NCBI GenBank assembly: GCA_951799425.1
Contig: OX637394.1
Location: 13,536,501 to 13,600,500 of the forward strand
Direction: 5' to 3'
Source of the DNA: Ilex aquifolium
Lineage: Eukaryota; Streptophyta; Magnoliopsida; Aquifoliales; Aquifoliaceae
Length of the DNA stretch: 64,000 nt
Position numbers and translations under genes: made by a program. A model generated the notes under the pieces. The model searched no databases. It had not been told where the DNA came from and saw only the letters and a program-made list of their open reading frames with translations. Shown piece after piece: positions 9,914 through 40,968 of the stretch; positions within the stretch are counted from its first letter, which is position 1, and each line of letters begins with the position of its first letter.

Positions 9914-10463
9914 TCTATATAATAAAATAGCTTACAATTTAAATTTTAAAAGATAAACAAAATGACTTTTACTTTTCGCGGTTCAGATCGCTTTAAATTT
10001 TACTTTAAAGTTAATCTAACGGCTAATATTAACACTCTAAATTTAATAGGAAAAATAGGCTTCTAAGGGTGTGTTTGGAGTGATTTTTTAAAAAGTACTT
10101 CTAGAAATTATTTCTCATAAGTACTTTAAAAAAAAAACAGTGTTTGAAACCGCCTCACCACTATCTCTACCACCACCATCGTCACAACCGTCACCACCAC
10201 CACTGCCATCGCCACCACCACCACCACCGCCACTCCCACCACTGCCGCCGCCACCCACCACCACTGTCGCCGTCGCTACCACCACCACCACTGCCACCAC
10301 CGCGGCGCCACCACCGTTGTCGCCACCACCCCCACTACAACCGATGCTTAAATTCATTTATTTCTCATCTATGTTTGTGATTTGATTTTGAATATGAATA
10401 CAAATATGTTTATTATTTACCATTTTTTATTACTCTGTGCCTTCAGGCACAGACAATAACTAG
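9914..10463 (+). mobile_element. Helitron H1 (550 bp) with short CCA minisatellite
   Basis: The 5' end is TCTATATAATAAAATAGC at 9914. The 3' end is CTAG at 10460-10463, preceded 6 nt upstream by a perfect hairpin TCTGTGCC-TTCA-GGCACAGA (10434-10453). The host bases are A before and T after, the Helitron target. The 5' part contains CTTTTCGCGGTTCAGATCGC, shared with H2, H4 and H5. A CCA/CCG-rich run lies at about 10154-10335. There is no Rep/helicase gene, so the element is non-autonomous. The long His/Pro-type frames across the repeat are composition artefacts. Confidence 0.88.
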
Positions 10464-13054
10464 TTATTCGATATAAATTGATACAAAATTAATGGATTTA
10501 AATTTAATTTTAATGAATTTGAGTGATAAATAAGTTGACCCACCTAACTCGCATAATAAATAAGTCGCGTGTCCGAGTGGACTATATTAACCTGTTTATC
10601 ACTCGATTCCTCATTTAATAAATTAATATAACACTCGAGTACCCAGTTACTACCCGATTATTCATTCAATAAATGATTCAATTTGTTACAAAATTAAGAA
10701 TATTTTATAACTACTATTTTTTATTTTCTTTAATGAAGTTAGATCAGCTGACACATCTGCACATGTAATGGATTAGATTATTGAGTCATTAACTGTAAAT
10801 AAAGACCAAGCCACCATCCAAGAACAATAGGTCATAAAATAAAGTTAAAAGAAGAAACTTTTATTTTATATATGCTATAGTCAACCCCTTTCTAGAGTAA
10901 AGTTGAATCAAAAGAGATTTAACTAATAGTAAATTGGTTCAATAGCTGCATCGTTGGGGAACAGGTATAGTTCCGCCCACGCTCATAATCGTTACAACTG
11001 TGCACGTTTGACTCTCCATAAACTTTACAAGGATGTGTTTTTCACTGTCCATAAACTTTGCTTTTCGTTTGTGTAAATTGATGGGCTAATGTTTATGGCA
11101 CTTTTTTTTTTTTTTGGGGGGGGGGGATGGAGTAATATCCCTTTCAATATATATTTTTTAAAATTTTTTCCTCGAATTGAAGAAATAAATATTATAATGA
11201 ATCTAATTGCAGTTGATTAAAAAGTTGAAAAAAAATCGTTTGGGGTGTTCATTAAAAAGTTGAAAAAAAATAGAAAAGTCTATTTTGAGTAACTTTCTAA
11301 CTTTTTTGACTTGTTTTATCAAAATAAAAAAATAATTACATGTATATATAAATTATGCATAATAGTTCCCAAAATATGAATTTTAAATTTTTTTTGTCAC
11401 TAATAATATTTTATAAATATAATAAATTAGAAAGTTATGTGGGACCGCGACAAAACTTTAAAAAGCCAGAAAAAAAAAACTCATAAAGTCAATTTTCTTG
11501 AATTAACCCAAGTAAGTTTTTTTTGGGTTTAAAAAATTGTTGTATAAGCGGGTAAAAAATCTAAAATCCAAACAGACTTGACTTATTTTATTCTAAAATC
11601 CTTAAAAATTACTTATTTAAGCTAGCTCCAAACATGTCGAATAATATTGTGAGAATTGATAAGAAAACTCATGTAATACATGGACAAGTGGATTATTTCT
11701 ATATTGCCTTTTCTTATTCCTAGTGTCATGAATTGCTCTCCATTGCAAACCCACTACTATCTTTCAGATTTGTAGTGATCAATTGTGAAACTAATATATA
11801 ATAAAATATAAAATCTTTGCATATGTAATCCTATTTGAATTGGTGAATGATAAGAGGTACGATAAAGAAAAATAATAATTTTTAGCACTGTAGTTAGACC
11901 CTACACGACATTGTTCTTGATCATCATGAAAGTAAATGATACATTTAAAAGCAATTTTATTTGTTCAATCAAATTTAGAGACTAAATGATATAACATTAT
12001 CATATTCTCGGATATTTGAGATTATCTTTGTTTTGAAAAACCATGGGACAATAGCACACCTTATCCATTACCTATGGGCACCGACTCGAAAATTTTAATT
12101 CACATTGTATAGCTCCATGTGCTTCAAAGTGAATAGAGCAATAGCTTACTCAAGTGAATAATATATAATTGAAAGAAAAAAAGGAACATGCAGGAACTTA
12201 CCGAAAAATAAGGAACTTGTAAGAATCTCGAGATCGACAAGTGCAATGCATCTTTCAATTATGTTTCATACCAAACCACGACTCATTCAAAACTTGAAAT
12301 TATAAGAACGTGCAGGGGGTTAGCATTATGATAGTTAGAGTCACAATGAGATCTGAATGAGAATCTTTTGTTTTGTAATCGTATCAAATCAATAGACTCT
12401 TGAGTAAAGGAACCTATAAAGGTGCATATATTACTTTAGGCAATGTAGGAGGAAAAAATCTTTTACCTTTTGATGGTTGAAATTTGATGAAAAAAAAAAA
12501 AAAACGAAAAAGGATGGCACTGTTCCAACTACAAAATAAGTAAATCGATGGTTAAATTGGTAAGAGCTCTGAAAGTTTTGCAAGGAAAGAAGCACATACT
12601 TCTGATTCGAGCATTATCCGATCCTTTCTGTTAGGGTTTTAGTCGTTGATTATACTAGGTGCCACACCAATTTTTTAGCCAAATTACTCTTGATTGATGC
12701 TGTGATTTTATTAGTTGATTCAATTATACGCAATCATTTTATGACCGTTTAAGTAGCATTAATAAGTCAATGCGAGAGAAACTCTAATATCAAATACTCT
12801 ATTTCCACTTTTCACCAAAAAAAAACAAGAAAAAAAAAACGAAGTGAATATAGTATAATTCGAAGCAGTGCACGGCACCACAAAGCATATGAACCATTTT
12901 TTTTTTTTTTTGAATAACACATGAACCATTTGAGTCACTATGATATTTTATATTTTTTCTGTTCATTATAACACAAAAAAACTGATTTTTTGCATATTAT
13001 ACATTGACCAAAGTTAACATGCACAACTACTACTATCTAAGAATGGTGGTGGGA
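10464..13054. other. intergenic, no gene seen
   Basis: AT-rich sequence with poly(T)/(G) at 11102-11126 and several homopolymer runs. A tRNA-like stretch lies near 12545-12615 (see findings). Nothing else is supportable. Confidence 0.45.
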
Positions 13055-14557
13055 CTAGGCGGTCCTTTCTTGGATCACAACCGGAAGACCACCTTTCACG
13101 GTGGCGGTCAGCCCTGGCGCGAACCGCGGCGTATGACTAGGTGTCGCCAGCCGGATATCAAACCTCCGGATCAATGAAAGAGCAACACTTTTCATTTCAA
13201 CCAGTGCCATTTCTTTCCCCAAACAAACCCTTAACCCGGCCTGAAAAACTGGGTACTTAAAAGGACTCTCTTGCTTAAAAACCCCATTTTTCAACCACCT
13301 TTCTGGCTTGAAATCCAAGCAATCTGAACCCCAAATCTTCTCCATTCGACCCATTGCATAGGGATGGTATGTAACCCTTGTACCCTTCTGAATAAATGTC
13401 CCATCTGGTAAAACATCGTCTTCTTGAGCAAACTTTGAATCAAATTGTACAGGAGGGTATAGCCTCATACTCTCATGTAATGCAGCTTGTAAGTAATGCA
13501 TTTCTCTGATTTGTCCAAAGCTCGCCGGTTCTTGGGTTGTTCCGATGATCCGATCTGATTCAGAACGGATTAGGGATTCCACATGTGGGTGCCTCCCTAC
13601 GAGCCAAAAGAAGCTTGTCAGCGCCGAAGCGACGGTGTCACGGCCGGCTAGTAGGAAGCTAACGACGATGTCTCGGAGGTACCTGTCATCGTCAATGGTG
13701 GCCATGAATCTTGACAAAAGGTCTTTTTGATCGGAGAAACCCATTTTTCGCTTGTGCTTTATTGCTTCATCTGCAAGGATATCAACCAATTTAATGGCTT
13801 CTCTGAGCTTCTTCTCTGTACCCAAATTTAGAACCCTCTTGAGCTTCCAGATCAATGGCGAAGCTGTCATGGCTCTCTCTGCTGATAATCTTGACGCAAG
13901 ATCAAAGGCCATTGAAAATTCTGAAATGGGTAGTGATAATTTGAGGCAACCAGGGTCAAATCCAAATGAAAATTTACATATATTATCGAATGAGAATCGT
14001 CTAAAAACGTCTTGTAAATCCAAAAAACTCTCTTCTTTCCCAGAAACTGATGATAATATAGGAATGAGTCTGGATTGAATCTCCGTGTTTACTATCTCGA
14101 ACGCATGTGATTTAATGGAGAGACTACCAAGCTCTAGAATCGCCATTTTCCTCTGAAAATTCCACAAATCGCCGTCGACGTTGAAGATACCTCTACCCAG
14201 AAGATCACCCAAGATGACAGAGAATGGTTTTCCTTTTGGATAATTCTCGAACTTTGTTTTGAGAATGTACTCAACGTTTTCTGGATTTGAAGTGATTGTA
14301 TTTCCAAGAACACGAATGTGAATTGTTCCGGTGGGTGACTTCCGGAGAAGATGGGTGTACCAATCGCCGAGATTGTGAAACTCCGTTGACCAGGTTGAAT
14401 CGAGGTAGGTTCGGCATATGTCGCAGTTACAGCATGGTTTTAGTCTCAATATGAAGAGGAGGAGAGAGAAGAGGGAGAAAGAGATTGTGAAAGTGAAGAA
14501 CAAGAAACAAAAACTGGTTTCTAGACATTGCAACCACGAAGAAGCTTCAAACTCCAT
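13055..14557 (-). CDS. CYP94C1: cytochrome P450, CYP94C1-type (jasmonoyl-isoleucine oxidase)
   Basis: Single exon, 500 aa, the usual size for the family. Order: N-terminal membrane anchor (about residues 12-37); CNCDICRTYL motif typical of CYP94C; I-helix AGRDT at 304-308; ExxR at 362-365; PERW at 418-421; heme loop FQAGLRVCLG at 438-447 with Cys445 as the iron ligand; C-terminal RFAPGLTATVKGGLPV. Residue by residue it follows Arabidopsis CYP94C1 more closely than what I recall of CYP94A/B/D. Family knowledge: CYP94C1 sits in the ER membrane and oxidises JA-Ile and 12-OH-JA-Ile to 12-carboxy-JA-Ile, switching jasmonate signalling off. The first Met starts the anchor directly. Two CACGTG boxes upstream fit jasmonate induction by MYC2-type factors (inference). 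The gene looks intact, with all catalytic residues present. Confidence 0.95.
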   Translation of the reverse strand: MEFEASSWLQCLETSFCFLFFTFTISFSLFSLLLFILRLKPCCNCDICRTYLDSTWSTEFHNLGDWYTHLLRKSPTGTIHIRVLGNTITSNPENVEYILKTKFENYPKGKPFSVILGDLLGRGIFNVDGDLWNFQRKMAILELGSLSIKSHAFEIVNTEIQSRLIPILSSVSGKEESFLDLQDVFRRFSFDNICKFSFGFDPGCLKLSLPISEFSMAFDLASRLSAERAMTASPLIWKLKRVLNLGTEKKLREAIKLVDILADEAIKHKRKMGFSDQKDLLSRFMATIDDDRYLRDIVVSFLLAGRDTVASALTSFFWLVGRHPHVESLIRSESDRIIGTTQEPASFGQIREMHYLQAALHESMRLYPPVQFDSKFAQEDDVLPDGTFIQKGTRVTYHPYAMGRMEKIWGSDCLDFKPERWLKNGVFKQESPFKYPVFQAGLRVCLGKEMALVEMKSVALSLIRRFDIRLATPSHTPRFAPGLTATVKGGLPVVIQERTA

Positions 14558-14610
14558 GGAGAGAGAGAGAGAGGTAGGTTGATGAGATCAAAGGCGAATG
14601 GTGGGCTTTG

Positions 14611-14618
14611 ATTTTATA
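14611..14618 (-). promoter_or_regulatory. probable TATA box of the CYP94C1-type gene
   Basis: TATAAAAT on the minus strand, 54-61 nt upstream of the ATG at 14557. A GA/CT run typical of plant 5' leaders lies between. Confidence 0.55.
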
Positions 14619-14725
14619 TTGGAGTGTACTATAGTTTTTTTTGTTTTTTTTTTTTCGAATCTTTGGTAGAGTAATGAGGAGGGGATACACACAAACACGC
14701 AGTGAGTGGTGTTTTCTAACTTTGA

Positions 14726-14731
14726 CACGTG
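14726..14731 (-). promoter_or_regulatory. G-box CACGTG, about 170 nt upstream of the P450
   Basis: This palindromic CACGTG is the binding core of MYC2-type bHLH factors. Its position in the proximal promoter of a jasmonate-catabolic P450 makes regulation plausible; binding is not shown. Confidence 0.5.
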
Positions 14732-14851
14732 AAGAAGAGTCGACATGAGAGCGACGCATAAAGGGCCATGAAAAACGCGTGCTCTAAATAAGCAAAAGAC
14801 AATTTTAACTGCTCAAGTTCGTCATGACTAACTACCAACCATAATTCAACC

Positions 14852-14857
14852 CACGTG
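14852..14857 (-). promoter_or_regulatory. second G-box CACGTG, about 295 nt upstream of the P450
   Basis: This second CACGTG core lies 126 bp from the first. Paired G-boxes are common in jasmonate-responsive promoters; their use here is inferred. Confidence 0.45.
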
Positions 14858-15232
14858 CTATATATACAGCAGAAGCGACCCGATATATATTAAGGTCTAA
14901 TGCGATAAATATGAATAAGGTTTTTATTAAAAAAAATTATTATTAATTTAAATACACATTTTTACTCAAATTATTGTATTTTTAAATTTTATTATTATAT
15001 ATTACCAATTGGTACCATATTTTTTTGTTTGATACTAGTAAAAATTTATCAAAGATTTTTTTGAGGCACAATTAATTTTTTAATTTTTCTTATTTTTAAG
15101 TTTTTATATCTAGATGATAGTCAATAATATATAATCAAAATAAATATATATGATAAAAAATAATTTATAATAAAAAAAAATAAACTTGGATTTAAACAAA
15201 AGTGTTAAAAATATGAAACAATAAAATTTAAT

Positions 15233-16141
<909 letters not shown>

Positions 16142-16700
16142 AAATTTAATATATCAGTGCTACATTAAAAAATTAAAATTTGATATAATAGCAATTTATT
16201 TTTAAAGAAAATAAAGTAAAAAATTTATGTGTATCACATTATTATTGTATAAAACCCGAAGTAGTAACACCGTTTAGTAGACTACCTTGTTACGATTTTA
16301 CCTCAACGACTTAAAAATGTGTGTCCTAAATAAATAATAAAGAGACAAAAAATTCACGAAATTCAATGCTATATATATGTTTTTATTCTTTGGTCATGTT
16401 TTTGTTCTAGAATTATTCAATATATATATTGTATGTATCGTTCAAACGAAGACGGGGTTTGCCTCATTTGGTCATAGTCTTTGCAAAAAAGAAAAAAAAA
16501 ATCCGGTCATAGTCGGCAAAAATAAATGCTCTCAAATTAAGTAAGATCTTAATATGAATATTAAATTAGATTTGATCTTTAAAGTCTTGGTAGACAGTTT
16601 AAACTTAAGAAGAGAGAAAAAGTTGAGGGAAGAGAAACTCTTTGACTTTATGTGACCATGAATCACAAAAAACAAAATTCATACATAATTTATATCTATA

Positions 16701-17359
16701 TCTATACTAATAATATAAAAAAAATAATAAATAAATTGTTAAGCAAAACATTGTTTCTCTTTAAATAATAGAAGCTACTGGTATTTTGGTTCTTCTTTGT
16801 AACTTCTATAACTCACTCCACTTCTGTCTTTAGGTGTTACTTTCCTTCGTAAGTTATCATGTATCTTAAGAAGTAACGCTTGTAAATAATATTGAAGATG
16901 ATGAGCTCAAAGTACAAGAATTTTTGGTTGTTGGTGTGATTTTTTTTGTGAAAATACTATACGGAAATTTTATTTGTTAATTAAATTTTTATTCACTTCT
17001 ATTGAGTTTTAATCTATTTTTTGGTCTTCAATTATTAAAATTTTACTATAAAATTTTAACTTTTTCCATTTCAGAGGCAATTTGGAATGAAAAACTCTAT
17101 ATTCTTGATAGAAATTCTGGTAAGTGTTGCCCACAACCATGGTAGAAACAAAATATTTGAAATATAAATATCATAAACAATCAATAAGTATTCAAATTAA
17201 CGACCTAATGTGTTCCTTTTATATTCTACCTCTTTTATTTTCTAACTTTACACTTACAAAAACCACAAATATGGAGATAATTTGGGTACAAAGTAAAAAA
17301 TAAAAACTATAATTATAATTAGAAATAGTTCACGTACAACGTACATGAATACCAACTAG
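16701..17359 (+). mobile_element. Helitron H6 (659 bp), a second family
   Basis: The 5' end is TCTATACTAATAATATAAA (16701) after a host A. The 3' end is CTAG at 17356-17359 before a host T. A hairpin lies shortly upstream: TTCA-C-GTAC-AAC-GTAC-A-TGAA (about 17329-17348), stems of 4+4 bp around one mismatch. Termini differ from H1-H5 and resemble the other common plant Helitron type, whose 3' ends carry CACGTGC-like hairpins. No coding capacity is visible. Confidence 0.7.
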
Positions 17360-18050
17360 TTATTTGAAAGAATTGGGTGATCCACTAATTTTTTTAGAGA
17401 AAAATTCTAAAAAGTCATAATTTTTCATTTATAAAACCATTGAGTCATACTGAATTTCTATTAAAATAATAAAGTACTAGTTTTCAAATTTTACTCTAAA
17501 AAATATTCAAAACCCCATGAATAATATATTTTATTCCAATTCTATTTTTCTAATAAAACCCAAAATCACTCATTTACCTATAATTTCATTACCCATTCTA
17601 GTTTATGCCTGTATTTTAAAATCACGTTTTCTTTTTATTTTCGCAGACAATTAGTTCTTTCGGTTGTTGAGCCATAAATCTGTGTTCTCCATTGTGAATC
17701 AATTTTCATGAAATTGAGCCATGAAAATAATTTTTTCGTATATAAAAATAAGGTTGCATATATTTGGCCTAAAGCCGACTTTACAAAAATCAAAGCCATC
17801 CTAAGCGATAATTTTAAAACATAATCCTTTCATAACGCAGTACAAATATGTGAGAATAGTACATAAAACACATTGTTATTTTATTTAGAATAATTAAAGT
17901 AGATTTCTCCGAAATTTTCAAGCAAACAAAAGTAAAATTTTCTAAGTTTGTCTAAGAGGGCTGCTCTCTTGTCGGCTACTTTTTTAGGCGTTATCCCTTA
18001 AGTTTGCTCAACTTTAATCAGAAGTGCGGCATGACTGGCCCCTTATGCTT

Positions 18051-18052
<2 letters not shown>

Positions 18053-18102
<50 letters not shown>
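18053..18102. repeat. compound microsatellite (TG)n(AG)n
   Basis: About 15 TG units are followed by about 10 AG units. The same TG-to-AG join recurs at 27886-27932 and 62743-62784. Confidence 0.95.
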
Positions 18103-18475
18103 TAGCACACAAATATGAAGGAAACTTGCCAATCTTGATCAGATTAGCCGTTGAATCAAACATTTTAGTTACTTTATTATGTTGTCCCGTTAATACGTTG
18201 TTATCCAATGAGAAGGTTTTGGTGGAGAATTTACCAGTCTTTTCCCACAGAGAGAGAGAGATGGGTGAAAAGACGTTTTGCTTTGCGACTTGGAATGAAG
18301 AAGCATAATAACATGCTATTGATGGTTCTATTCAACAACATGATATTCACGTTTTAAAAATGGGACAATTCAACATATAGAGGTTGACAGGACTCAGGAG
18401 CGAATTTACGTGGTTTAGTTTATAGAGTGGGGTTATTTCCGCCAAAGAAATTTCCATTCTTATCTTATTAAATTA

Positions 18476-19755
18476 CTAGTTATTTCTCGTGCCTAAAGGT
18501 ACAGAGTAATAAAAAAAATTATCAATATATTTGTATTCATACCAAAAATCAAATCACAAACATAGAGAAGAGATAAAGAAATTTAAACACCGATTGTAGT
18601 GAGATTGGGCGGTGGTAGTGGTGGTGGGCGACAGTGGTGATGGTGGGAGACGGTAATGGATGTGGTGGGTAAGGCGATGACTGTGGTGGTGGTAGCAACC
18701 GTGGGTGGCAATGGTGATGGTGGTGGTGGACTTTGAGTGACGATAGTAGTAATGACAGCCATGGGTGACAATGGTGGTGGTGGTGGGTGTGGGTGTGGGT
18801 GGTGGTGGACGACGGTGATGGTGGTTGGCAGTGGTGATGGTGGGACGACAATGGTGGTGGTGGGTGGTGATGATGGTGGTGGTGGGCGACGATAGGTGCT
18901 TCTAGGCGATAGTGTGATGGGTGATGGCGAATGGCGGCAGTGGTAAGTGTGGTGGGGGTAGGTGACAGTGGGTGACTGCAGTGGTGGGCGATGACAGGTG
19001 GTGGTGGTAGGTATGGTGGGGTAGGTGACAGTGGCTAGTAGCGATGGTGGGCGACGATGGGTGGTGGTAGGTGTTGACGGTGGGCGACAGTGGTAGTGGG
19101 ATGATGATGGTAATTGTAATAAATATAAGAATAAGATGACGATGGTGGGTTGGCGATAGTGGTGGTAGTTATAATGGTCATGGGGGTGATAGGGGTGATG
19201 GTGGGACAGTAGCGGTAGTGGTAAAGTGCGACAACGGTGGTGATTAGGGATGGTGGTGGTGGGGCGGTGGAAGTGGTGGTGGGACGGTGGTCATAATGGT
19301 AGTGATGATGGTGGGGTGGTGGTGGGCGGTGGTGGTAGTGTTTATGGTGGTGGTATGGCAATGGAAGTGGTGATGGTGGTGGTAAAGTGGTGGCAGCGAC
19401 GGTGGTGGTAGGTACGGTAAGGTGGCGATAGTGATTGTGGCGGCGGCGGCAGCAGCGGTGGTGGTGGTGGCAGTGGTGATGAAACAGTGGGTGTGGTTAT
19501 GGTAGAGGTAGTGGTGGGGCGGTTTCAAACACTATTTTTTTTTAAAAGAACTCATGAAAAATAATTTCTAGAAGTACTTTTAAAAAATCACTTCAAACAC
19601 ACCTTTAGGGGCCTATTTTTACTATTAAATTTATGGTGTTAATATTAGTCATTAGATTAACTTTAAAGTAAAATTTAAAGCAATCTCAACCGCGAATAGT
19701 AACAGTCATTTTGTTTATCTTTTGAGATTTAAATTGTATTATACTTTATTATAGA
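18476..19755 (-). mobile_element. Helitron H2 (1280 bp) with long GGT/CCA minisatellite
   Basis: Read on the minus strand, it starts TCTATAATAAAGTATAAT at 19755 and ends ATAACTAG at 18476, with host A before and T after. Its 5' 250 bp follow H1 closely, including ATTCGCGGTTGAGATTGC, AGTACTTCTAGAAATTATTT and TTTGAAACCGCC. A degenerate form of the 3' hairpin (GTACC-TTTA-GGCAC) remains. Nearly 900 bp (about 18600-19515) is an imperfect CCA/CAY repeat. No Rep/helicase is present. Confidence 0.85.
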
Positions 19756-19835
19756 TAAATTATAAAACTATTAAGTTCACCTCATTACTCACCTCACTAA
19801 TAACTAAGTTCACTATATTTTGTACCCGTTACTAA

Positions 19836-20549
19836 GGGTGTTCAAATTTTCGATTGACCGCAATTTCTTATCCTACCCTACTGAATGGCTAGCCGCAAAA
19901 ATCGGGTAGAATACGAAAGAGTTTTTGGTCTTCTGATTAAATCAGGTAGGAATGCAGAATACTCATTAATTTTCGCATTCCTACCCTACCCTATCCACAA
20001 AAAATATATTTAACTTTTTTATATTTTTTTTAGTAATTATAAGAGTATTTGTATGGTATAATTTATATTATAACATTATTATTGTTGTGGATGTTTGAGT
20101 TGATAAAACATGGACTTGTTTTTTGTGTAGGTTACATGATTTGTGGTGAACTGATGATCAATTGGAACAGTTATGATTTTAATGTGTTTCATATAGTTTA
20201 AACTTAAAATAATTGTTATTGTATTTGTGTAACAATTATGATGAATTGATGTTCATGCTTTCTTATGTTTTATTGTAATTGTTATTGTAGTTGTTTTAGG
20301 TTTTAGTATTATTGATTTATTGTATTGTTAAATTGGTGCATGTTATTTAATTGAATTGTTAAAATGATCCAAAAATTAATAGCTACAAAAGTGTTTACCC
20401 GACTTCCTACCCGATTAATCGGGTAGAAAGTCGGATAGGAATACCACACCTGATAGGGTAGGGTAGGCCAAGAAAAAATTCTTCCGCAAAGTATCGGGTA
20501 GGAAGACAAAAGACTATATTTCATACCCGTAGGGTATGATGAACATCCC
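19836..20549. mobile_element. probable terminal-inverted-repeat element (GGGTGTTCA ends)
   Basis: GGGTGTTCA at 19836 is mirrored by TGAACATCCC ending 20549, with one mismatch. Sub-terminal words are also mirrored: TACCCTACTGAATGG on the left and ATAGGGTAGGGTAGG on the right. The class is unclear and no target duplication was found. Confidence 0.45.
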
Positions 20550-25693: not shown

Positions 25694-27159
25694 TTATAAG
25701 AAAAAGCCCAAATACCATAAGACCAACCTTTGGATTCCTAAATCCTTCATGGCAGAGGTAATTGCTTGTTCCGAAGCCTTTTCAAGTTGGAGCTCGTTTA
25801 GTCTTTCCTCCACTACTTTCTCCTCTGCATCAATGTCAAGTCCAGGTGTCCCGTTCAGTGTCTCACCTAGCTTGTATGGGTTTTCCAGTATCAACCCCTC
25901 CTTTTCACCGCACACATAAGCTGAAAACACACATACAATCTCTAACACTGATGAATGGGAAGACTAATCCAGTGGGTTAATAATTAAAATAAATAATTAG
26001 CTCTAAATCAAATCTACACACACACACACACAAAACAATTTTACTCTGTTAAAAGGTTAAAATGTGAATGGTAAGATAAATCATAAATGTGTCTTCTTTT
26101 ATTTACTGTGATTAAAATGTAAGTGGATTATTAAAATATTTATTGTGGTTAAAAGGTAGAAAAATGTTATTTGAACTTAAAATATTTACATGATTTGCTA
26201 ACTTAATCAATCACAACTATTGAATAGATAATGAGTTCCAATAAATACTGAAACCCATAATTAAATCAATGACAGTGATTGATTAAGTCAGCATTTTAAG
26301 TTAATGTAGCATTGCTCTAAAAGGTAAGTATGATAAACATGTTTAGAGTAATGAAAAGATTAAACATATATAGGCAGATCTAGTGCAGTCAAAAGATTAA
26401 AATTTAAGAAGTAAGATAAACCGTTGAATTTAAGCGACCGGGGCCGTTGTTGTGTTTTATGCATGCAGGGTGATTATATAGATATAGCGGTTATATATGA
26501 AGCATATTAATGTTAAGGAACGATACTAACCAGTTGAGACATGGAGAAGCAAGTTTAACTTAACACACTTTTTGGCGAAGTGCATAACATGCCTAGCTCC
26601 CATTGTATTGATTCTTAGTGAAACATCATATCTGCATAACATAGATTTGAAATAAACATTAAATAAATCTATCTTATGTTAAGATAAACTAGAATCTGGT
26701 AGCCTCACATGAACATACCTTTCATCAAAGTTGGTTGTTGCAGCTAGGTTAACCACCACATCTACTTCTCTCCACGTCTCTTCCAACAAAGTAGAGTCCT
26801 TTATCCCCAAATTCTCAAAGGTAATGTCACCGGGGACCAGAGTGACTTTTTGTGAGATTAGGGTATTTAGATTTCCACCCCATTTGTCTTTTAAAACTCT
26901 AAACAGGTCCTTCCCTACCACCTAAGTGAATAGAAGAGCTAAAAGAATAAGTCATTATCTATATTATCTGCCATCATCAGTATATTAAGTGCACATGAAA
27001 GTGAAAATAAAACTTTGATTCTCTGACATTTCTGACTCTCATGCATGGTGGTATATTAGTAGTACTCTAATTTTTTATTTTTTTTTAAAGACAAGATGGT
27101 GCAGAAGAAAATGCAAATTGATGTACAACCTCTCTCTCTCTCTCTCTCTCTGTATATAA

Positions 27160-27193
<34 letters not shown>

Positions 27194-27882: not shown

Positions 27883-27932
<50 letters not shown>

Positions 27933-30127: not shown

Positions 30128-30264
30128 AAAAGTGGAAGTAACAAGTCCGATTTCAATTAAAAGCGGAAGTAACAAGTCCGAATTTATCCTTAAAAGTGGA
30201 ATCGTCAATTCCGAGTTTATCCTTAAAAGCGGAGTCAACAATTTCGAGTTTATCCTTAAAAGCG
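30128..30264. repeat. tandem repeat, unit about 33 bp, four copies
   Basis: Units start at 30128, 30159, 30192 and 30225, each beginning AAAAG(C/T)GGA and ending with a TTTATCCTT-type word. A partial fifth starts at 30258. The frame stays open through all copies (motif SEFILKSG) because the unit is 33 bp; no other coding sign. Confidence 0.85.
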
Positions 30265-30591
30265 TATATATGAAATACGTTTTTAGTCGATCACGTGCAA
30301 GACCCAGGAGACAGAGAGGGTTAGCCAGTAGTTATGACATCTCTGAGGCATCAACTAGCTAAGGGTACTGGTGGTTGTAAAAAATCAAAGTTGACATGAC
30401 ATTTGCTTTAGCTCATGAGCTCAAAAATAATTATTAATTACAGCTACAAATCATATATATAGATAATTTATCACATTTATAGATATTTTTTTTATTATTG
30501 TGAGTATTTTTATCATTATTTTAATAATTATTTTTATTACTTTTTTTTATACAAAAATAAATTATTACTTTTGTTAGTGATTTATTACATT

Positions 30592-30716
30592 TGTGAGAGT
30601 TTTTATCATTGTTATAGTAATTATTTTTATTAATTTTATTATTATTATTTTTATAAATCATATTAATAATAAAATTAATAAAAATAATTACTATAACAAT
30701 GACAAAAACTCTCACA
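30592..30716. repeat. long near-perfect hairpin, arms about 54 bp
   Basis: TGTGAGAGTTTTT (30592) to about 30645 is mirrored by the segment ending AAAAACTCTCACA at 30716, with about one mismatch and a loop of about 17 bp. A diverged copy of the left arm lies just upstream (about 30497-30545). A further inverted pair follows: AATTTGTTGACCTAAT at 30718-30733 and its exact reverse complement at 30816-30831. Confidence 0.85.
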
Positions 30717-31179
30717 TAATTTGTTGACCTAATGACGTGGTTTCATTAGAACCATTAGATTAACATTAAGTTTCAATGTTTGATGGAACCCACAGTCAAT
30801 CCAAAGGTAATAATGAATTAGGTCAACAAATTAAGTCAATAAATTAGGTCACAATAGCATTGCTCTAATTCTATATACTTCTCAAGTACTTAATTTACAT
30901 TCCACAAAGAACAATTGTTTTTAGAACACAAATCTGGCTACATTTTAATAGAATAGATCAAGTGCATAGTTAGAAAAACAAGTTGGTATTGCTGATACAA
31001 CAATTTCCAACAGATATTTTGGTTGGTTCTGATGAACACCAAAGATAAACTAATTCCTTTATGTAGACTTTTAGTTGATTAACAAATCCTTCTTTCCTTC
31101 CTTACAAATTATATTATGTAGTTGGGGTTTCAAAAGGGGGGGGAGGCTAGCTAGCTAATATAATGGTATTAGTTTTCAT

Positions 31180-31183
<4 letters not shown>

Positions 31184-31254
<71 letters not shown>
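31184..31254. repeat. (CT)n microsatellite, about 35 units
   Basis: Uninterrupted CT dinucleotides over 71 bp. Confidence 0.97.
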
Positions 31255-31258
<4 letters not shown>

Positions 31259-32000
31259 ATTTTTGTTCTATAGAAATAAAATTAGAAAAAGAGATTGGAA
31301 AGGACCCATCAAGTGGAGATTCACACACTTTGATATAGATATGTACATACACAACGAATCAATAACGTTATTAATCAGATAATTATGATACATCAAGTCC
31401 CCAAATTAGATGTTAGCATTCCTCCACATGAATATACGCTTTGGGTCGCAAAACACTTGAGTAATCCATTCCTATCTACCTATTGTATAAAATAATCAAA
31501 AAATGGAGTAAATGGCTTAGGAAATCTTTCCTCTTTATTTGCTTAATTGTAAATATTTTAAGTTATGAAATAAAAAAAAATAGTTTTCTCCAATTAAATT
31601 TCTCCATGTTTTCCTATGTGACCACTCTGCCATGTTACTCTTATTTTCAATTACTTCGCTCACAATTCTATCTATTCAATCTCTCACTTTCTTTTTAATT
31701 TGGATAATTTTAGACCGACAAAAAAATGAAAAAAAAAAAAAAGCACATAATGTGACATTAATATGATTGTAGCGATTAGAGATTTTAGAGCAAGATAATG
31801 AGCGTAAATCTTGTGCATCACATCATCCGTCATTAGTTATCGTATTAATACAACATCTACTTGAGTTCTTTAGAAGTTTAGTGCATAGTGTTTTTTTTTA
31901 ACGGGTTTTAGCGCATAGTTGAAGGTCGTCTTTTTTGTCATATCTCTTGTCTAAAAGAGAAGAAAATTATATTATAGAATCCAAAGTTAGATTACAGAAT

Positions 32001-32060
32001 CCAACCTATGCCGGAGGAATCCAACCTACGCCGGAGGAATCCAACCTATGCCGGAAGAAT
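32001..32060. repeat. 20-bp tandem repeat, three copies
   Basis: CCAACCTATGCCGGAGGAAT is repeated three times head to tail, with one or two base changes. Confidence 0.9.
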
Positions 32061-33887
32061 CTAGTCAAAATTATCAACACTGACAAGAAAGTTCGGGGAC
32101 GATGAAGGGCTGTGACGATAAAGCATGGCAATGAGTATAAGGGATTGAACATAAAAGACAATGTCAAGTGCTGCAATTTAGAGTTACCTTGAGAAGATCA
32201 ATTATTTAATGTTTGATGCTTTCTATCGGATCCGTATCTCCTCTAATACATTCTTCATCACTTTTTTCGGTAGTGGATCACCAAAGTAGGTAACCATTAA
32301 TATATTGTCGGTGAATTACCGGAAGAAAGTGTATTGGATGGATTTGTATTCCTTTCTACCCACCCAACTATTGAATGCACTTTTTGTGTTTAATTTTTTT
32401 TTATTTTCTGTTTTTTTTGGGGGGGGTTGAGGGTTGGGGGTTGGGTATTCATGGATCCTTCGGTCGTCAGTGACATAAATATTTGGCAGACAAGTTGGTT
32501 ATACCTAACTTCAAAGATTTGATGATTAAATTATCTTGGTTTTTAAACTTTTATTTTCACTATACCGTTCTTAATTTTGAACTTATTGCCTAAATTACCA
32601 CATATTTCATGAAAACGAGGGTTAAACCCACGATGTTCCAAAATAAAAGTGTGCTTGCAAAACAGTCATTCAAAGTTTTTACATTGGATGGTGTGAGTTT
32701 AACCCGTACTTTTATGAACACTAGAATAGTTTAGAAAATAAATAAAAAACGCAACACATTGGATACTAATAGTTCAAAAGGTATCGTAATTTGATTTATT
32801 TATTTTTTTTGTTTCGACTCCAAAACCCATATCGCTTTCATGCCATGGGAATCAAAAAAAAAAAAGCATGCATGTCACTCTCATATTAATCCAGCATTCT
32901 GCTATTATTGGCTGAACACAGCATGTGATTTTGGAGATTTGGTACTCCTAAAACGACAATTAGAACATAATCAAATCCCATTATTATCGTTAATGTCTAT
33001 GACTCCACACCCTTTAAGATTAGCAGTAGCTTTCATGGGGTAATTAAGTTGACTTTTATGAGTAATAAAAACACTGTCAAATCTCATTTGCTTGTGAGAG
33101 AAATAGAGATTTAGCCAAAGGATTTGTAGCCAAAAGATTAGACACACAAATGTGTGATAAGAACAAGTTTTGTGTAATCTTCCTGGAAATAATTGAAGTT
33201 TTAAGACAAATAGAGACAATTGTTTTTGTAATGTTTGTTACTTCTATATGACCAAACAGTCAATATTTACACCATAATGCTTTGGAATCTACTTGAGGGA
33301 TGACCTCAAGTACAAATTTGGACAATCTGCCTCTGGCCCCTTCTTCTTGTCAAAGTTTGCTACCAGTGCCCGATACAAATTAGATTTTGATCGATTCGAA
33401 TATGTATGGAAGATATGATAAGGTTCAAAAAGATTCATTAATTTTGAAGTTGTTTAGCTAAATGTATCAATATTACGTCATATGTAAACTATAAGACATT
33501 TGGTCCGTGGAAGGAAGAACCATTCCCTTCCCTTCCCTTTCTATCACAAATAATTTTTTTGATCTTGAATTTCTACGATTTTAACCGAAATCTAACGTCT
33601 CTTGTTTTCAAATATCATATAGGAATCTTAAAAGAAAATCATAGATGATTCGAACAACTAAAATGGAGTTGTATTTTACCAAATTACATATGAATTTCAA
33701 CTCAATTTTATCACGTATTTATTTATTTACACATATAATTGAGATCAAATCACAACCAAACTGGATCCAGGGATGTGCAAATCTTAATCCGTGAGATTCA
33801 AATAATTAGTCAAATATATCAATTTATATCAGACTAATTAGATTTAGATCTGATTTGAATCAAAATTTGATCTATCCAACCATCTCC

Positions 33888-34357
33888 AGGAGTGACAATT
33901 GTGTCGTGTCATTTCAGGTTCCTATCGAGTACTAGTCAACTCTAACCCAACCCGTTTAATTAATTGTGTCGTGTCGACTAATTATTTTCGTGTCGTATTC
34001 GTGTTGACTTATATAACCCGTGAATAAAAAATTTAATGCTCAATTTTATTTATAAAATTTCATTATCACTTAATTGATCTATGCTCATACATTTTTTATA
34101 AATTAAAAATTAACTTAATAAATGTAATAATAAAATGAATAAAAATATTTTTTTTATGTACAAGAATTAGGTCACTACTTGATAAAATATAATAAAAAAT
34201 TGACATTTTATTTTTATAATGCTACTTAAACGTGTTAATCATGTCAACATGTCATATCATATACGGGTTCATGTTAAGAAATGATCAATTCTAACCCCCT
34301 AATTTCTTGTCGATTTTGAGTAAAATTTTTGTGTTGTGTCAAAAATTATCTGCCCCT
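33888..34357. mobile_element. TIR element with GTGTCGTGTC-type sub-termini
   Basis: The left end is AGGAGTGACAATTGTGTCGT; the right end, read in reverse, is AGGGGCAGATAATTTTTGAC. ATCTCC occurs directly outside both ends (33882-33887 and 34358-34363). The interior has repeated CGTGTCG/ACCCG words, as at 9180-9740. The class is uncertain, perhaps hAT-like. Confidence 0.5.
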
Positions 34358-34790
34358 ATCTCCGGACTTTTTAGGTAGCTAATCTTATCATCCTTGTGTC
34401 CCATGTTTCCAAAAAAGTTTGTTTGCCTCACTGGTAAGTGGTAATTAATCACATTAGGTGAGCAGTTCCTGTTGGAATTTGGTGGGTACAGTTGCCCTAA
34501 ATAGCAACCCACAGGAATAGAAACATATTGATATATACATTAGTCTATTCCACCCCCACTATCCTACTACTAAGTAGGTTTCAATTTTGTAGTCTTCTTT
34601 GTGCTTTCAAGATCTTGTTGGCAAGAAAAATATTTGATTTGCTGAAAGAACAAAAAAAAAATTTTTTTTTTTTTTTAGTAATCTTACTTGTAAGAGAATA
34701 TGTTTACCCTCAAAATGATTTATTTAAGTAGAAATTTATTCTTTTGCTATTAGGAATCAAAACATTGAACTCAAAAGGAAAATATCATTA

Positions 34791-36197
34791 TCTATATAAT
34801 AAAGTACAACATAAAAAATGATGTATTTTTTACAGTTGAGATTGTTTTAAATTTTATTTAAATTTTATTTTAAAGTTGATCTGACGGCTAATATTAACTC
34901 CCCAAATTTAATAGGAAAAATATGCTCCCTAAGAGTGTGTTTGGGGTGACTTTTTAAAAGTGCGTCTAAGACTTATGACTTCTTATAAGCACTTAAAAAA
35001 AAATAGAGATTTGAACAATTAATTTTAATTACTTTTAAATAAGTCAAAAGTAGTAAGTAAAAAAAAATTTTACTTCTTTAAAATTATTTTTCTATAAAAC
35101 ACTTCACCGTCTTACCATCGCCGTCGCCACTCCACCACAGCTACCGTCGCCACCCCCCCCCCCCCCAATCACCATCGCCACTACCACCACCATCACCACT
35201 ACCACCACCACTTTTGCCACAATCATCGTCGTCACCCTACCACTATCACTGTCTCACCACTATCATCACTACCACCACCGTCGCCACCACCACTGACGCC
35301 ACCCCACCACCGCCCCCACCGTCACCATCACCCCACCGCCGCCGCCACTCCACCACCTCTACTACCACCACTATCATCGCCACCACCCACCACCACCACT
35401 GCCCCCCTCCATCACCACCACCATCATCGCCACCCATCACCGATTGCTACCACCATCGCCCACTGCCACCACCCACCACTATCATTATTTCATTTTTATA
35501 TTTATTACCATTACCACTATTATCCCACCACCATCGTTGCCCACCGCCACCACCATCATTGCCTACTACCACCCACTGCCATCCACCATCACCCGTCGTC
35601 GCACATCTACCACCACCACCCATCATCGCCCACCAACGCCACCACCCATTGTCACACACCCCCACGACACCCACCATCACCGTCATTCGCCACCACCCAC
35701 TACCACCGTCGCCCACAAGCACCCGTCGTCATCCACTACCACCATCGTCACCGCCCACTACCACAACTCATCACCGTCGCCGCCACCACCATCACCATCA
35801 CCATCGTCGCCCCACCACTACCACTGCCAACCACCATCACCATCGTCGCCCCACCATACCACTGCCAACCACTATCACCGTCGCCCACCACCACCCACAC
35901 CCGCTACCATCACCGCCATCATCCTTGGCTACCACTACCACCATTGTCACCCAAAATTCACAACCACCATCAACATTACCACCCACGACTACCATCATCA
36001 CTACGGTTGTCACTGTCCACCACAACCATTGTCTTCTCTCACCACCACTACCATCGCTCATCTTCACTATAATCGGTGCTTAAAATCCTTTCTTTCTCCT
36101 CTATGTTAGTGATTTAATTTTGGATATGAATACAAATATGTTTATGGTTAATAATTTTTTTTATTATTCTGTGTCTTCAATTACGGGCAATAACTAA
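34791..36197 (+). mobile_element. Helitron H3 (1407 bp) with long CCA/CAY minisatellite
   Basis: Starts TCTATATAATAAAGTACAAC at 34791 after host A and ends CTAA at 36194-36197 before host T (CTRR allows A). Shared H-family words include GATCTGACGGCTAATATTAA, GAGTGTGTTTGGGGTGA and, after the repeat, ATGAATACAAATATGTTTAT. The 3' hairpin has decayed to GTGTC-TTCA-ATTAC. About 960 bp (35110-36070) is imperfect CCA/CAY repeat, which keeps several frames open (up to 289 codons); these are not genes. Confidence 0.83.
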
Positions 36198-36379
36198 TAA
36201 TTTTATAAAAAAACATAAATTAGATGGGCTCGATAGAATGGAAATTGGTTTGTAACGAAAAAAGCCGGACTTTCCATCTACTATGAGCTATGGAGGTGAG
36301 AAAAATGATTAAACTCGTCTCACACTAGAAGTAGGATGAGAGATTGAGTCGTAAATCTCGTTCTTATGACCTCAATATA

Positions 36380-38458
36380 TCTATATAATAAAGTAGCTAG
36401 ATTTCTGTCTTTAGCTTTTCGCGGTTCAAATTGCTTGAAGAAATATTGATCCGACGGTCTTAATACGAAATATCCTCTCCCCCCAATTTTTTGAGCAAGA
36501 CTTTCATTCATTCCACAATTCTAAGACTCCTATCTCTCTTATAACTCTCTATCTCTCTCTATCTTATACTACACATTAATTAGGTCGCTAATTATGATTC
36601 TAATAAAAGATTATTTTTAAAAATTTTAAATAAACAAATGGACCTTAAATAAATATTCTTTGCGTCAAAACGAGTCGAATGACTATAATATAGGTCATAT
36701 TTTGTTTTGAAATAAAAATACTATAATATTCGAATGGTATAATAGACGAATAATATTTATGTAATGTGATATATCTATATACTAAGGGGTCTATCATTAT
36801 TTGTCTTATTGTTTTAAGATTATTGATCAAACGATCGAAATTCCTCCTCCAAATTTCATTGTACTCGATTATCGGTTCGAAGTGATTATGATTAGTATTC
36901 GAATTGAGTTGAATTTAATTGTCAAGTATAAAATATGTATTCTAACTTAAACTTAACTTTGCTTGAATTTTACGAGTATTCAAGTTGAAGTTAAAGTGAA
37001 ATTGATTGTAAAAATAATAAAGAATAACTAAATTAAAAAAAAAAAAGTTATGACATCACAGTGAACGGGAATAGAAAAGAATTAGTTTGTAGGTTTAAGA
37101 TAGAAGTGTTAATTTAGTCGAACTTAAATTCAATTCTCGATTTGACGTAATTAAGAGTAAGATTCGAATTTAACTGAATTTAACTGTCGTGCATAAAGTA
37201 TAAATTATTGCTTAAATTTAAAGGGTGGAGTTATTCCCACCCCCAAATCTTCATTCTCACCTCATTTAATTTATCATTATTAAACTACTAAGTCTACCAT
37301 TTCTATACTCATCTCATGCTACATACACCCCTTTTAAAAAGAAAAGAATGAAACAAGGAAAAAAAAAAGAAGCAAACTGAAACAAGAAGGGAAAAAAAAA
37401 CAAGCAAAGATTAAATGAACAAGTAAAATTACAAAATGCAAAACCACAACACGCAATACCGGATATAAAAAAAAAAGTATCAAGCACAAACACAAAATCG
37501 AACAAAAATAAAATAAGAAACATAGATACAAAACCTAAACAAGATAAAAAAACAACAAATAATCTGAAAAGAATACATATATATACACACATATAAATTC
37601 TAAATAAAAAATTATTAAACTTGACATAGATATCAAAACATACCAAAAATAATAAAAATTCATACAACAGACAAGAAATCAAATATATAATTAAATTGAA
37701 AAGTAATACTAGCATTTATCTCACTAGAAAAATTTATATTAAAAAAGTAATTTTGTGAGTGCATGAGATGAAATAGAGAATAAAACCCTAATTATGACAA
37801 AATAAAAGGTGAGTTTACTTATTAAACGGGGTGTATGTAGCATGGGGTGGACTTTGTTACAAATAGGGTGGGTATAGAAGGGGTGGGCTTAGTAGTAGAA
37901 GGGTGGACTTAGTAGTTTGATAATGAGAAATTTAATAAGGTGAGAATAGTCTCACCCAAACTTAAATTCAATTGAATTTTACGAATATTTAAGTTGAACT
38001 CAAATAAAAACTGATTTTAATTACTCAACAAAATTTTTTACATCTACGAGAATTCACGTGAAACTTTTGGATGATTTCCTCACAAAAGTTACACAAACTC
38101 ACATTAGAAAAATGGTGCAGAGATAATGTTATGAACTTTAGGTAGAAACCTGCAGATAAACAAATAGTTATATTTTTTTTTTAAATTTGAAATAAACTTT
38201 ATTAAAAATGTTAATATTGTGGATGTTTAACCAATAATAATTATATTTTCTCAAATTTTTTAATTAATATGTTGCAGTAGTTGCAGCGTGACTTTCGTTA
38301 TATAAAGGTTTGATTATATATGTTCTGCATACAGGTTGAACAATATCAATTTGATCGTTATATTGTTGAAATTGTATTATACATTGCCTTTATTTATGAA
38401 AAAATATTTACAATTTTGTACGAGTAACGTAGTGCCTTCAGGCACGGGTAATTACTAG
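36380..38458 (+). mobile_element. Helitron H4 (2079 bp)
   Basis: Starts TCTATATAATAAAGTAGC at 36380 after host A. Ends CTAG at 38455-38458, with hairpin GTGCC-TTCA-GGCAC at 38432-38445. The base after the 3' end is the T that opens H5. The 5' end carries AGCTTTTCGCGGTTCAAATT as in its relatives. It holds a Mutator-type MITE (37223-37957) and no recognisable gene. Confidence 0.85.
37223..37957. mobile_element. Mutator-type MITE nested inside Helitron H4
   Basis: The ends are GGGTGGAG...CTCACCC, with long TIRs; TTATCATTATTAAACTACTA on the left mirrors TAGTAGTTTGATAATGAGAA on the right. The flanks are AAATTTAAA (37214-37222) and AAACTTAAA (37958-37966), a 9-bp duplication with one mismatch. The interior is very A-rich, which creates a 133-codon Phe/Leu-rich frame on the minus strand that I do not count as a gene. 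Confidence 0.78.
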
Positions 38459-38767
38459 TCTATATAATCAAGTAGCTAGATTTCTTTGTCTTTAGCTTTT
38501 CGCGACTCAAATCGCTTGACAATTATTGATCCAACGGTCCTCATGCCAAATTTTTCTAAAACTCCTATCTCTCATCTAACTCTCTCTCCTTATCTCATAC
38601 TAACTGATACAAAGACTTCTATCTTTCATCTAACTCTATTTCCCTATCCCATACTATAACTCTCTCTCCATATCTCATACTAACCTCTCTCACGTATCTC
38701 TCTCACATACGTTTGTCTCTCTTTCAACTCTACCACTTGCCCAAGAACTGAACCACTAGCGACTGCT

Positions 38768-39452
38768 ATGGCAACTACAACTACATCCAGTGTAATCATC
38801 GAGACTATGTCTTCCATCCAGCCGTCGCCACTCTCGAGTAACGCTTTGTCTCCCTCCTCCTCCTCTTCCTCCTCCTCCTCCTCTCTCTCTCTCTCTCCAA
38901 ATTAAGGTTTAGCATTATTGTTTTCCTCTATATACATCATTGCCTTTTCCTCTCCCTTTGTGGTAGGACTTACGAAGCCATGGATAGATACCATGAAGTC
39001 GAGAAACAAAAGCTCAAGTCACAACTGTCTGCTTCAGGTACTTTGGTTTCTTAGGTTGTCTGGTCTTCTTTTATCTTTCATGGGATTTTTTTTTTTGGTT
39101 TTCTATTAATCGACATTGATTTTCGTTGGTGTCATTGGCTGAATTGATTTTTCGTAGGTCTAGATTTCTTCGTCATAAGTCCAAGTTCCTGCCAAAGTGG
39201 AGTGGAGGTTTAAATTTTCATAGTCGAAAGTGGATGACTTATGGATAGTTTCAATTGGTGTGAATCACTCAGATTGTTTACTGTTTGTTTTAGATCTCTA
39301 CAATTATGAGATGAAAGAAAGTACTAGGCAAAATTGTATGACTTTTTATAGTCATTTTATGTACAGATTTACGTGAGTGATCCCCCTTATTTTTTATATT
39401 TTGCTGTTTTTGGTACATAGAGATGGAAGATGATGAAGAGGAGGGCCTCTGA
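38768..39452 (+). pseudogene. exon-like cassette of unknown host gene captured in Helitron H5
   Basis: A possible first exon 38768-38904 opens with ATG (MATTTTSSVIIETMSSIQPS, then a Ser-rich run) and ends AAATTAAG|GTTT. A second, 38967-39037, lies between TGTGGTAG and GTACTTTG, joins in frame and reads TYEAMDRYHEVEKQKLKSQL. A last one from 39421 follows ACATAG, reads MEDDEEEGL and stops at 39450-39452. AATAAA follows at 39559. Both introns lie where a plant gene could have them, but the middle of the gene seems lost. I do not recognise the protein. This could be a captured, partly deleted gene, or chance splice-like sites in an AT-rich element. Confidence 0.45.
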
Positions 39453-40383
39453 TTCCTTTTATTTTCTGCATAGATTAATGTTGTTGTAAAAGAAGCAAGA
39501 TATCCATTTTGGGGTGGTTTTTATTTTATTTTTTATTTGGGCTTGATTGTATAACTTGAATAAAGAATTCCTTCTTTATTATTATTCTCATTTTGCAACT
39601 CCTCATTTGCTAATTGTTATGGAATTGTGGGGTTGTCTCAAAGAACACTCACCAGTGGTTTGAAAAAAAATTAGATATGGATGATTAATATGCAAAGCTT
39701 ATCAGGAGGATGAACCCACCTAGGTGTTATTACGAATCTCTTCATCTTTTCCAATTAATGTTTTTGGTCATGAATTGGTGTTCTATGTTTTTGGGTTTTA
39801 GTGAGCATATTGGTTCAGCTATATAAAGAATCATGATATCCATTGTAACTTTAATTTCATGATCTTGAGCATTTGTCAAAGTTTCCAAAGCAAACAAACT
39901 AAGTGGTGTCTGGAAAGGGTTTAAAAAGTAAACAAATTCTTTATTGAAATTTGCATTTGCACATTGTGCACTGAGTTTCTGAATTTTGCACATTTAGTAT
40001 CAATTTTTTAACTTTTGATCTCAGACAACAATTGATTTGTTTACTATACCACGGTGAATTCAATCCTATTATATCTTTATCTCTCTATTTGCATTTCTTA
40101 TTCTTAGATTTATTAAAAATTGATGGTTGTTTGTACATATTACAGTTGAGGTATTAACATCTTTCATTCAACTTTTTAGGTGAGTTTGATAGTTTTGGGA
40201 TAGTATTAACGCCTTTCATTGATGATATTTGTAGTTGTAGTAATACATGATCATTTATTATTATTTTATCTTAAAAACTTGAATTGTTGTATTTCTAACA
40301 AAAGTAGTTGTTAGTTACAAGGGTTTGTCGGTAACCAAAAAAGAAATGTGTGTGAGTCTGTGTTTTGTGTATATTTATATGTG

Positions 40384-40735
40384 GGGGATTGGACATTTGA
40401 TGATTGAATTTATAATTATGTTGTTATTGGGGTTGAATGGTGATAGTGGTGATAAATTAATGAGTTTTATAAATGAGCAAGGTTTGGTTGTTTTTATTTA
40501 TTCCTTAAATATTGTGAATTTAATTGTGTTCTGTTAAAATTTGTTTGTTTTTGTTTGAAGTATTTATTATATGGGATAGATTGAAAATTTGGAGATCGAG
40601 TTTATAATTATGTTGTGTTATTAGGTTGAATGGTAACCGTGATGATAAATTCACGAGTCTTATAAATGAGCAATATTTTATTAATTTTATTTATTGATTA
40701 AAGATTGTAAACTTTATTAGGTTATGTTAGTATTT
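40384..40735 (+). repeat. diverged tandem duplication, offset 192 bp, in Helitron H5
   Basis: Both copies contain TTTATAATTATGTTG, GGTTGAATGGT, GATAAATT and TATAAATGAGCAA in the same order, the first copy near 40384-40550 and the second near 40574-40735. Confidence 0.7.
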
Positions 40736-40968
40736 TATTTTTTTATTTTTTTTTGTATTTATATATATGGTGTTGTTTTGAGAAGTTTTTTTTATATATT
40801 TTTATGATAGTTACATTAATATGAAAGATATGATCGACAGTATATTTCGATTATTTTAAAAAAAAAAATTGGTATGAATGTTTTCAGGCCCTTTTTTTTT
40901 AATCTAGGCAATTGTTTGCAATTTTTCTTTTGGGTTATCTAGTGCCTTTAGGCACGGGCAATGACTAG

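Follow-up and report, generated by a model that had tools for sequence, protein, structure and literature searches.

Head-to-tail chains of non-autonomous Helitrons in the genome of Ilex aquifolium and their probable origin by insertion at resident left ends

How Helitrons come to lie end to end is a question raised by a window of 64,000 nucleotides from the plant Ilex aquifolium (assembly GCA_951799425.1, contig OX637394.1, positions 13,536,501 to 13,600,500 of the forward strand; C4:13536501-13600500 in the contig numbering used here for a genome of ~800 Mb in 103 contigs). The original prediction for this window had proposed six Helitrons with readable ends. Two of these, H4 (36380..38458, plus strand, 2079 bp, with a hairpin at 38432-38445 and CTAG at 38455-38458) and H5 (38459..40968, plus strand, 2510 bp, with a hairpin at 40942-40955 and CTAG at 40965-40968), adjoin directly, and reading of the plus strand gives the head-to-tail junction CTAG/TCTATA at 38455..38464 with zero bases between the elements. 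The best explanation overall is very probably that non-autonomous canonical Helitrons of at least four families have been chained in this genome by insertion directed to the left ends of resident elements.

The H4-H5 abutment and its counterparts in the genome

The outer ends of the H4-H5 pair were located by comparison with other copies in the genome. Matches to the 5' end of H4 began at query positions 83-103, the TC being at 101, in all 39 other places, and matches to the 3' end of H5 stopped at 128-161, CTAG ending at 129, also in 39 of 39; 26 of the latter stopped at 130, one base past CTAG, and two overran by ~30 bp. Both results agree with the termini that had been proposed. A query ending at the CTAG of H4 was matched in 39 other places, at 30 of which the downstream sequence was read. 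Full-length copies of H4 on C15 and C20 are 88-90% identical, and a 371-bp query from the interior of H5 gave 16 other matches, 7 covering nearly the whole query. The two elements have in common 94 bp of 5'-end sequence (85% identity), 35 bp of 3'-end sequence (89%) and short CT-rich stretches just inside the ends; BLAST revealed no further match between them at E 1e-3, the interiors being otherwise unrelated. A 261-bp query across the junction was spanned, from position 6 or less to 256 or more, at 12 other places. Each element had been predicted to lie between A and T, which was found for five of the six, while the TC of H5 follows the G of the CTAG of H4. Insertion of H4 at the edge of H5 would explain the missing A.

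Junctions of this type were counted across the genome with an exact pattern consisting of AATNACTAR, 0-14 bases and TCTATATAATAAARTAG. The pattern was found head to tail at 492 places, against 0 for the pattern control, and its head-to-head equivalent was found at 3 loci, where the spacers measure 8, 12 and 14 bp. The H4-H5 junction lies outside the exact-pattern set, H5 reading TCTATATAATCAAG. The exact 5' 17-mer is present 4,564 times in the genome (control, 1), and ~11% of the exact 5' ends have a Helitron 3' end of the same orientation directly upstream. By our own estimate, random placement of ~10,000 elements would yield <1 such junction. Since the exact 5' motif was present in 27 of 39 and 24 of 31 sampled copies (69-77%), and the exact 3' motif in 34 of 39 and 19 of 20 (87-95%), the stringency of the pattern does not explain the contrast between head-to-tail and head-to-head arrangements. 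For the first 100 junctions listed, which are from C1-C3, the spacer was 0 bp in 72, 4 bp in 23 and of another length in 5, the 4-bp spacer being TATA in 22 of the 23. Helitrons that adjoin a second Helitron's 5' end nearly always share its orientation and mostly lie 0 or 4 bp away, and the abutment of H4 and H5 fits this strongly one-directional, genome-wide pattern.

The same arrangement was found in samples of single families. A Helitron 3' end lies within 8 bp upstream of 7 of 28 H4 5' ends (that at L143 recognized by its hairpin alone), the sample being the 39 other copies less 8 belonging to a composite subfamily and 3 that are units of a single array, both considered below. A same-orientation Helitron 5' end lies directly downstream of 7 of the 30 H4 3' ends read, or at least 7 over all 39; the fraction of 7 in 30 may be biased upward, 10 of the 30 having come from a list ranked by the junction query. 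The genome-wide pattern counts avoid this bias.

Three of the window's elements belong to a further family, here called A. H1 (9914..10463, plus strand, 550 bp, with a hairpin at 10434-10453 and CTAG at 10460-10463) has a C-rich interior of imperfect trinucleotides. H2 (18476..19755, minus strand, 1280 bp, reading A/TC...CTAG/T) and H3 (34791..36197, plus strand, 1407 bp) are older copies, the latter ending in CTAA with a decayed hairpin and matching H1 and H2 at both ends. The three share ~190 bp of 5'-end sequence and ~130 bp of 3'-end sequence, and the C-rich middle differs. BLAST identity of H1 to H2 and H3 is 80-83% in the 5' part and 73-80% in the 3' part; between H1 and H2 it is 80% in a 409-bp stretch of the 5' part, the 3' end matching too. 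The interiors (10150-10340, 18600-19520 and 35110-36080 of the window) are C-rich and trinucleotide-like, and those of genome copies range from 121 to 823 bp; C exceeds G on the plus strand of the element in 43 of 43 genome interiors of this family examined.

The first 237 bp of H1 recur at 39 other places with 94-96% identity. These copies, which form the family-A sample, are from the best 40 scored of 4,558 candidates and were picked by the 5' sequence of H1 only. A matching 3' end was present in all 39 (CTAG in 31, CTAA in 4 and CTAT in 4), the exact TCTATA start was present in 35, and interiors matched in 741 of 741 pairs. Matches between flanks were found in only 2 of 435 pairs on the upstream side and 4 of 561 on the downstream side, a comparison that leaves out the 9 and 5 copies, respectively, having a neighbour on that side. 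Homology running past the proposed ends, which would have spoken against the family-A elements as drawn, was looked for in this way and the flanks were found to be unrelated. Where there is no neighbour, the preceding base is A in 30 of 30 copies and the following base T in 34 of 34, one end call being off. Insertion between A and T appears to hold for family A; among the window's elements H5 is the exception. An immediate family-A neighbour (<=13 bp) was found for 13 of the 39 copies in a scan that covered family-A ends only, 200-300 bp upstream and ~0.1-2.7 kb downstream, and all 14 of the junctions are head to tail.

Formation of the chains

Independent insertion directed to the left end of a resident Helitron, together with the occasional spread of composites, is the account favoured by the comparisons made here. 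Within family A, neighbours resemble each other no more closely than random copies do, the mean identity being 92.5% for five 5' pairs versus 94.1% for random copies and 87.7% for twelve 3' pairs versus 90.2%, results which argue for insertion beside resident 5' ends and not for recent multimers. Partners may also come from different families, as at L091 and L113, where a family-A 5' end comes after an H4-type 3' end. On the tree, copies that have a neighbour upstream do not group together, the label requiring 12 changes for 12 rows compared with a shuffled mean of ~10.6. Near-identity of adjacent units was found neither for H4 and H5 nor for family-A neighbours; among the chains read, it was seen in the truncated array L117 only.

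The joining chemistry that we infer is as follows. H5 would have been resident first, and H4 would later have inserted between the host A and the T of H5, producing a G/T junction with the A-T rule kept. The transposase would nick or bind the left end of the resident as it does in starting transposition, and the CTAG end of the incoming element would be joined to the TC of the resident, the circle-closing reaction taking place between two elements. Some composites would afterwards transpose as single units bounded by the outer TC and the inner CTAG. Composites do move: in a subfamily at 8 places (L126, L127, L132, L133, L137, L138, L144 and L088), 186 bp of the 5' end of another Helitron are fused before H4, and the outer flanks differ in the 4 printed. 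A stronger form of the proposal, to which we give somewhat less than an even chance, is that other Helitrons use the 5' end of a resident as a dedicated landing site, specific for orientation, where the transposase joins a right end to a left end in trans by the chemistry of circle closure.

Several observations weigh against left-end-directed insertion as the source of the chains. None of the 20 other H4 3' ends has a head-to-tail neighbour, all 7 cases having come from the 10 ranked by the junction query. At L161 a family-A neighbour lies tail to tail with 12 bp, TATATATATATA, a TA run, between the elements, and at L019 one opposite element lies ~170-260 bp beyond the chain; such neighbours show that elements can come together through ordinary targeting too. 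Junctions lacking a downstream TC are recurrent, with CTAG or CTAA followed by TATATAAT (L018, L021, L017, L086, L096, L105 and L147), and for this class the A-T rule gives no explanation. The tree is nearly star-like, and no more than 3 origins are required by its well-supported branches, a weak resolution that leaves room for a few amplified dimers. Among the first 100 junctions listed, the members of six consecutive pairs are separated by just 555-691 bp on one strand (for example C3:50719301, 50719972 and 50720663); such series are chains of at least three similar-sized units and could be multimers. Finally, the array L117 (C4:11233300-11242300) holds three truncated H4 units of 1488, 1452 and 1452 bp that are 99.7-100% identical where aligned. 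The units are joined at an internal A/T of H4, not at CTAG; after them come a full H4 and the 5' end of another Helitron, in that order. The array looks like tandem amplification and could stem from self-insertion and unequal exchange.

The near-identical units of L117 and the consecutive junction pairs are also what favours rolling-circle multimers, in which replication passes the CTAG end and lays down at least two copies per event. Precise CTAG/TC junctions are present in Helraiser circles, and tandems in plants and bats have been interpreted in this manner (PMC5876387, PMC4778049). We nevertheless consider this origin unlikely, in view of the ordinary divergence of family-A neighbours, the unrelated interiors of H4 and H5 and the pairs drawn from different families. 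Moreover, the 4-bp spacers, almost always TATA in the junctions listed, are unexpected from read-through, and the cuts in L117 at an internal A/T are not those of elements ending in CTAG. Slightly more probable, yet still doubtful, is an origin in which a few chance adjacencies made composites that were then amplified, most of the 492 junctions being their copies. Multi-terminus elements of maize have been explained by nested Helitrons (PMC3288121), and the subfamily with a foreign 5' end before H4 has indeed spread to at least 8 places; against this stand the diversity of junction types and partner families, differences of 5-14% among the 8 upstream neighbours compared and the lack of clustering on the tree, weakly resolved as it is.

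The remaining alternative, that Helitrons merely prefer TATA-rich targets and that Helitron 5' ends are TATA-rich, is the least probable of the three. It is consistent with the TA-rich flanks, with the TA run in the one tail-to-tail pair and with the reported preference of Helraiser for AT-rich targets (PMC4778049). Such a preference predicts head-to-head and head-to-tail arrangements in equal numbers, whereas 492 were found against 3 loci with stringency not the cause; it also predicts broad spacing, whereas 95 of the 100 junctions listed are at 0 or 4 bp. The bias of orientation contradicts it, barring an unrecognized strand asymmetry of the target.

Termini, families and machinery of the window's Helitrons

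The six elements are members of repeat families that end where the original prediction had placed them, in support of their identification as Helitrons, and they appear from their sequences to be ordinary non-autonomous canonical Helitrons of a plant genome. Direct reading confirmed the TCTATA start and the CTAG end (CTAA in H3) of all six at the coordinates given, and the 5' TC is present in these and in a seventh element, H7, described below. The weight that had been given to such motifs was too great, as alone they are near chance level. The window contains 20 occurrences of A/TCTATA compared with a shuffle mean of 13.8 and a maximum of 26, indicating that the motif alone is no evidence, and 5 hairpins (stem >=5) followed by CTAR/T compared with a mean of 1.46 and a maximum of 6. 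Motif statistics were rejected as sole evidence, the A/TCTATA count being within the shuffle range. Pairs of TCTATA and the subterminal motif ATYNRAYGRYY number 8 in the window versus a mean of 0.65 and a maximum of 3 in 200 shuffles; the motif also follows TCTATA at 36774 (plus strand, within H4) and at 26482 (minus strand), possible extra or nested 5' ends. The last 45 bp are alignable across H1-H5. A 3' end profile was built from these same five elements, and its E-values are therefore circular and prove nothing new. No match was obtained in viral contigs scanned with the 3' end pattern.

The case rests on homology and genome copies, not on end motifs. That the six are not Helitrons, being chance TC and CTRR motifs around unrelated repeats, would be consistent with the near-chance level of end motifs in an AT-rich window. 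It is hardly credible, since genome copies have the same end points in unrelated flanks and homology beyond the ends was sought and not found, the 5' end of H6 being outside that check.

The hairpin predicted near the 3' end is good in H1 (8 bp, perfect) and in H4 and H5, both with 5-bp stems GTGCC/GGCAC; it is imperfect in H2 and H3, and in H6 the stem is 4 bp. The two families originally recognized are better replaced by four, namely A (H1, H2 and H3), H4, H5 and H6, with two types of 3' hairpin. H6 (16701..17359, plus strand, 659 bp, hairpin core at 17334-17344) is a separate family in whose relatives the hairpin is better; that of H6 has apparently decayed from CCACGTACAACGTACGTGG, the form read in those relatives. 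Its ends were compared at 39 other places. The 3' end was borne out, with matches stopping at offsets of -3 to +5 from CTAG at 27 of the 39 places; of the others, 7 overran CTAG by 10-16 bp and 5 stopped short. CTAG was followed by t in 14 of the 19 loci printed in readable orientation (of 30 loci, the window's own included). The 5' end was not confirmed, the first 14 bp being covered by no match among those listed; H6 is the only site in the window that fits A plus the 5' consensus of 13 bases from HelitronFinder.

H7 (59126..59257, minus strand, 132 bp, reading A/TCTATAATA...CCTAG/T) is absent from the original prediction, outside the span of which it lies, and was first seen as weak matches to both end profiles with the right spacing. 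The 39 other copies scored are 80-88% identical; 37 begin at query positions 35-48, the TC being at 44, and 34 end at 174-181, where CTAG ends at 175. The six elements had been expected to escape annotation; current Helitron software would probably detect most of them.

Absence of Rep and helicase domains, proposed for all six elements, was supported for H4 and H5, the only ones covered by the scan, in which none of 13 open reading frames (ORFs) gave a match. At 550-2510 bp, the elements have too little room for a RepHel gene of normal length, the RepHel of Helraiser being ~1800 amino acids (PMC5876387). In the genome, at least 150 matches to Helitron_like_N exceed the cut-off (204 candidates, 150 scored), some of them in open frames of >1,100 codons. 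At the RepHel loci L118-L120, just 3.5 kb long, no ends matching the window elements were found. RepHel proteins encoded elsewhere would presumably move these elements in trans; rolling-circle movement and any pairing of particular families with particular RepHel proteins are likewise inferences. One match to Helitron_like_N (Rep), with one internal stop, lies at C4:13621691-13622233, ~21 kb past the right end of the window.

Positions 38967-39042 within H5 are exon-like with splice-like borders, and H5 may carry a gene fragment, the parent gene of which was not identified; no Pfam match to this stretch was obtained in the ORFs scanned. Gene capture by H5 is not claimed, a similar stretch at C6:41982155 showing no clear gene. 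Inverted repeats resembling miniature inverted-repeat transposable elements (MITEs) or other elements with terminal inverted repeats (TIRs) were seen at 15251-16122 (65-bp arms 742 bp apart). Similar MITE- or TIR-like structures are a 57-bp near-perfect hairpin at 30592-30716 and, within H4, 64-bp inverted-repeat arms at 37253-37947. By content the window is plant nuclear DNA, with ORFs matching cytochrome P450, Root_cap, TYW3 and Hira of Pfam.

Relation to known Helitrons and implications

The elements resemble canonical plant Helitrons such as HelA of maize (PMC2267711, PMC6591975) in the 5' TC, the 3' CTAG with a nearby hairpin, insertion between A and T, numerous non-autonomous copies and the presence of Rep-type genes in the genome. 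They differ as particular families, marked by the hairpin GTGCCTTYAGGCAC and, in family A, by a strongly strand-asymmetric, C-rich trinucleotide interior.

Junctions of the CTAG/TC type were described earlier in bats and in the r1 region of maize, the authors of the maize study weighing tandem replication against consecutive insertion and pointing out that insertion between a host A and the T of a resident yields a G/T junction with the A-T rule kept (PMC2267711). The r1 pair is similar to H4 and H5 in its head-to-tail CTAG/TC arrangement, G/T junction and different interiors, and was interpreted as consecutive insertions. That study presented it as the first case in maize; the present pair is accompanied by a count of 492 exact-pattern junctions from a single genome and by a control for orientation. 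A preference of Helitrons for insertion near other Helitrons is known from earlier maize surveys (PMC3288121). The accessible portion of that paper, in which maize elements with several termini are explained by nesting, gives no orientation count or 0/4-bp spacing. Centromeric tandem arrays of Helitrons have been ascribed to rolling-circle amplification (Xiong et al., cited in PMC6591975), as have tandem arrays in PMC5876387. The centromeric arrays are alike in tandem repetition, whereas the neighbours read here are diverged and some are of different families. Circles of Helraiser and Helibat (PMC4778049, PMC5876387) show the same precise joining of CTAG to TC, there within one element and here, as proposed, between two. 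No count of orientation at resident 5' ends was recognized in the accessible portions of the open-licence literature, and novelty is not claimed. Clustering and head-to-tail junctions have already been reported; the near-absolute lock on orientation is the part worth following.

These results bear on the open question of how Helitron tandems originate and how composite Helitrons are built. The bias of 492 to 3, together with the 0- and 4-bp spacing, offers a means of distinguishing rolling-circle multimers from left-end-directed insertion by sequence alone. If insertion directed to resident left ends is correct, unrelated Helitrons would be chained into mobile composites, which may generate new families.

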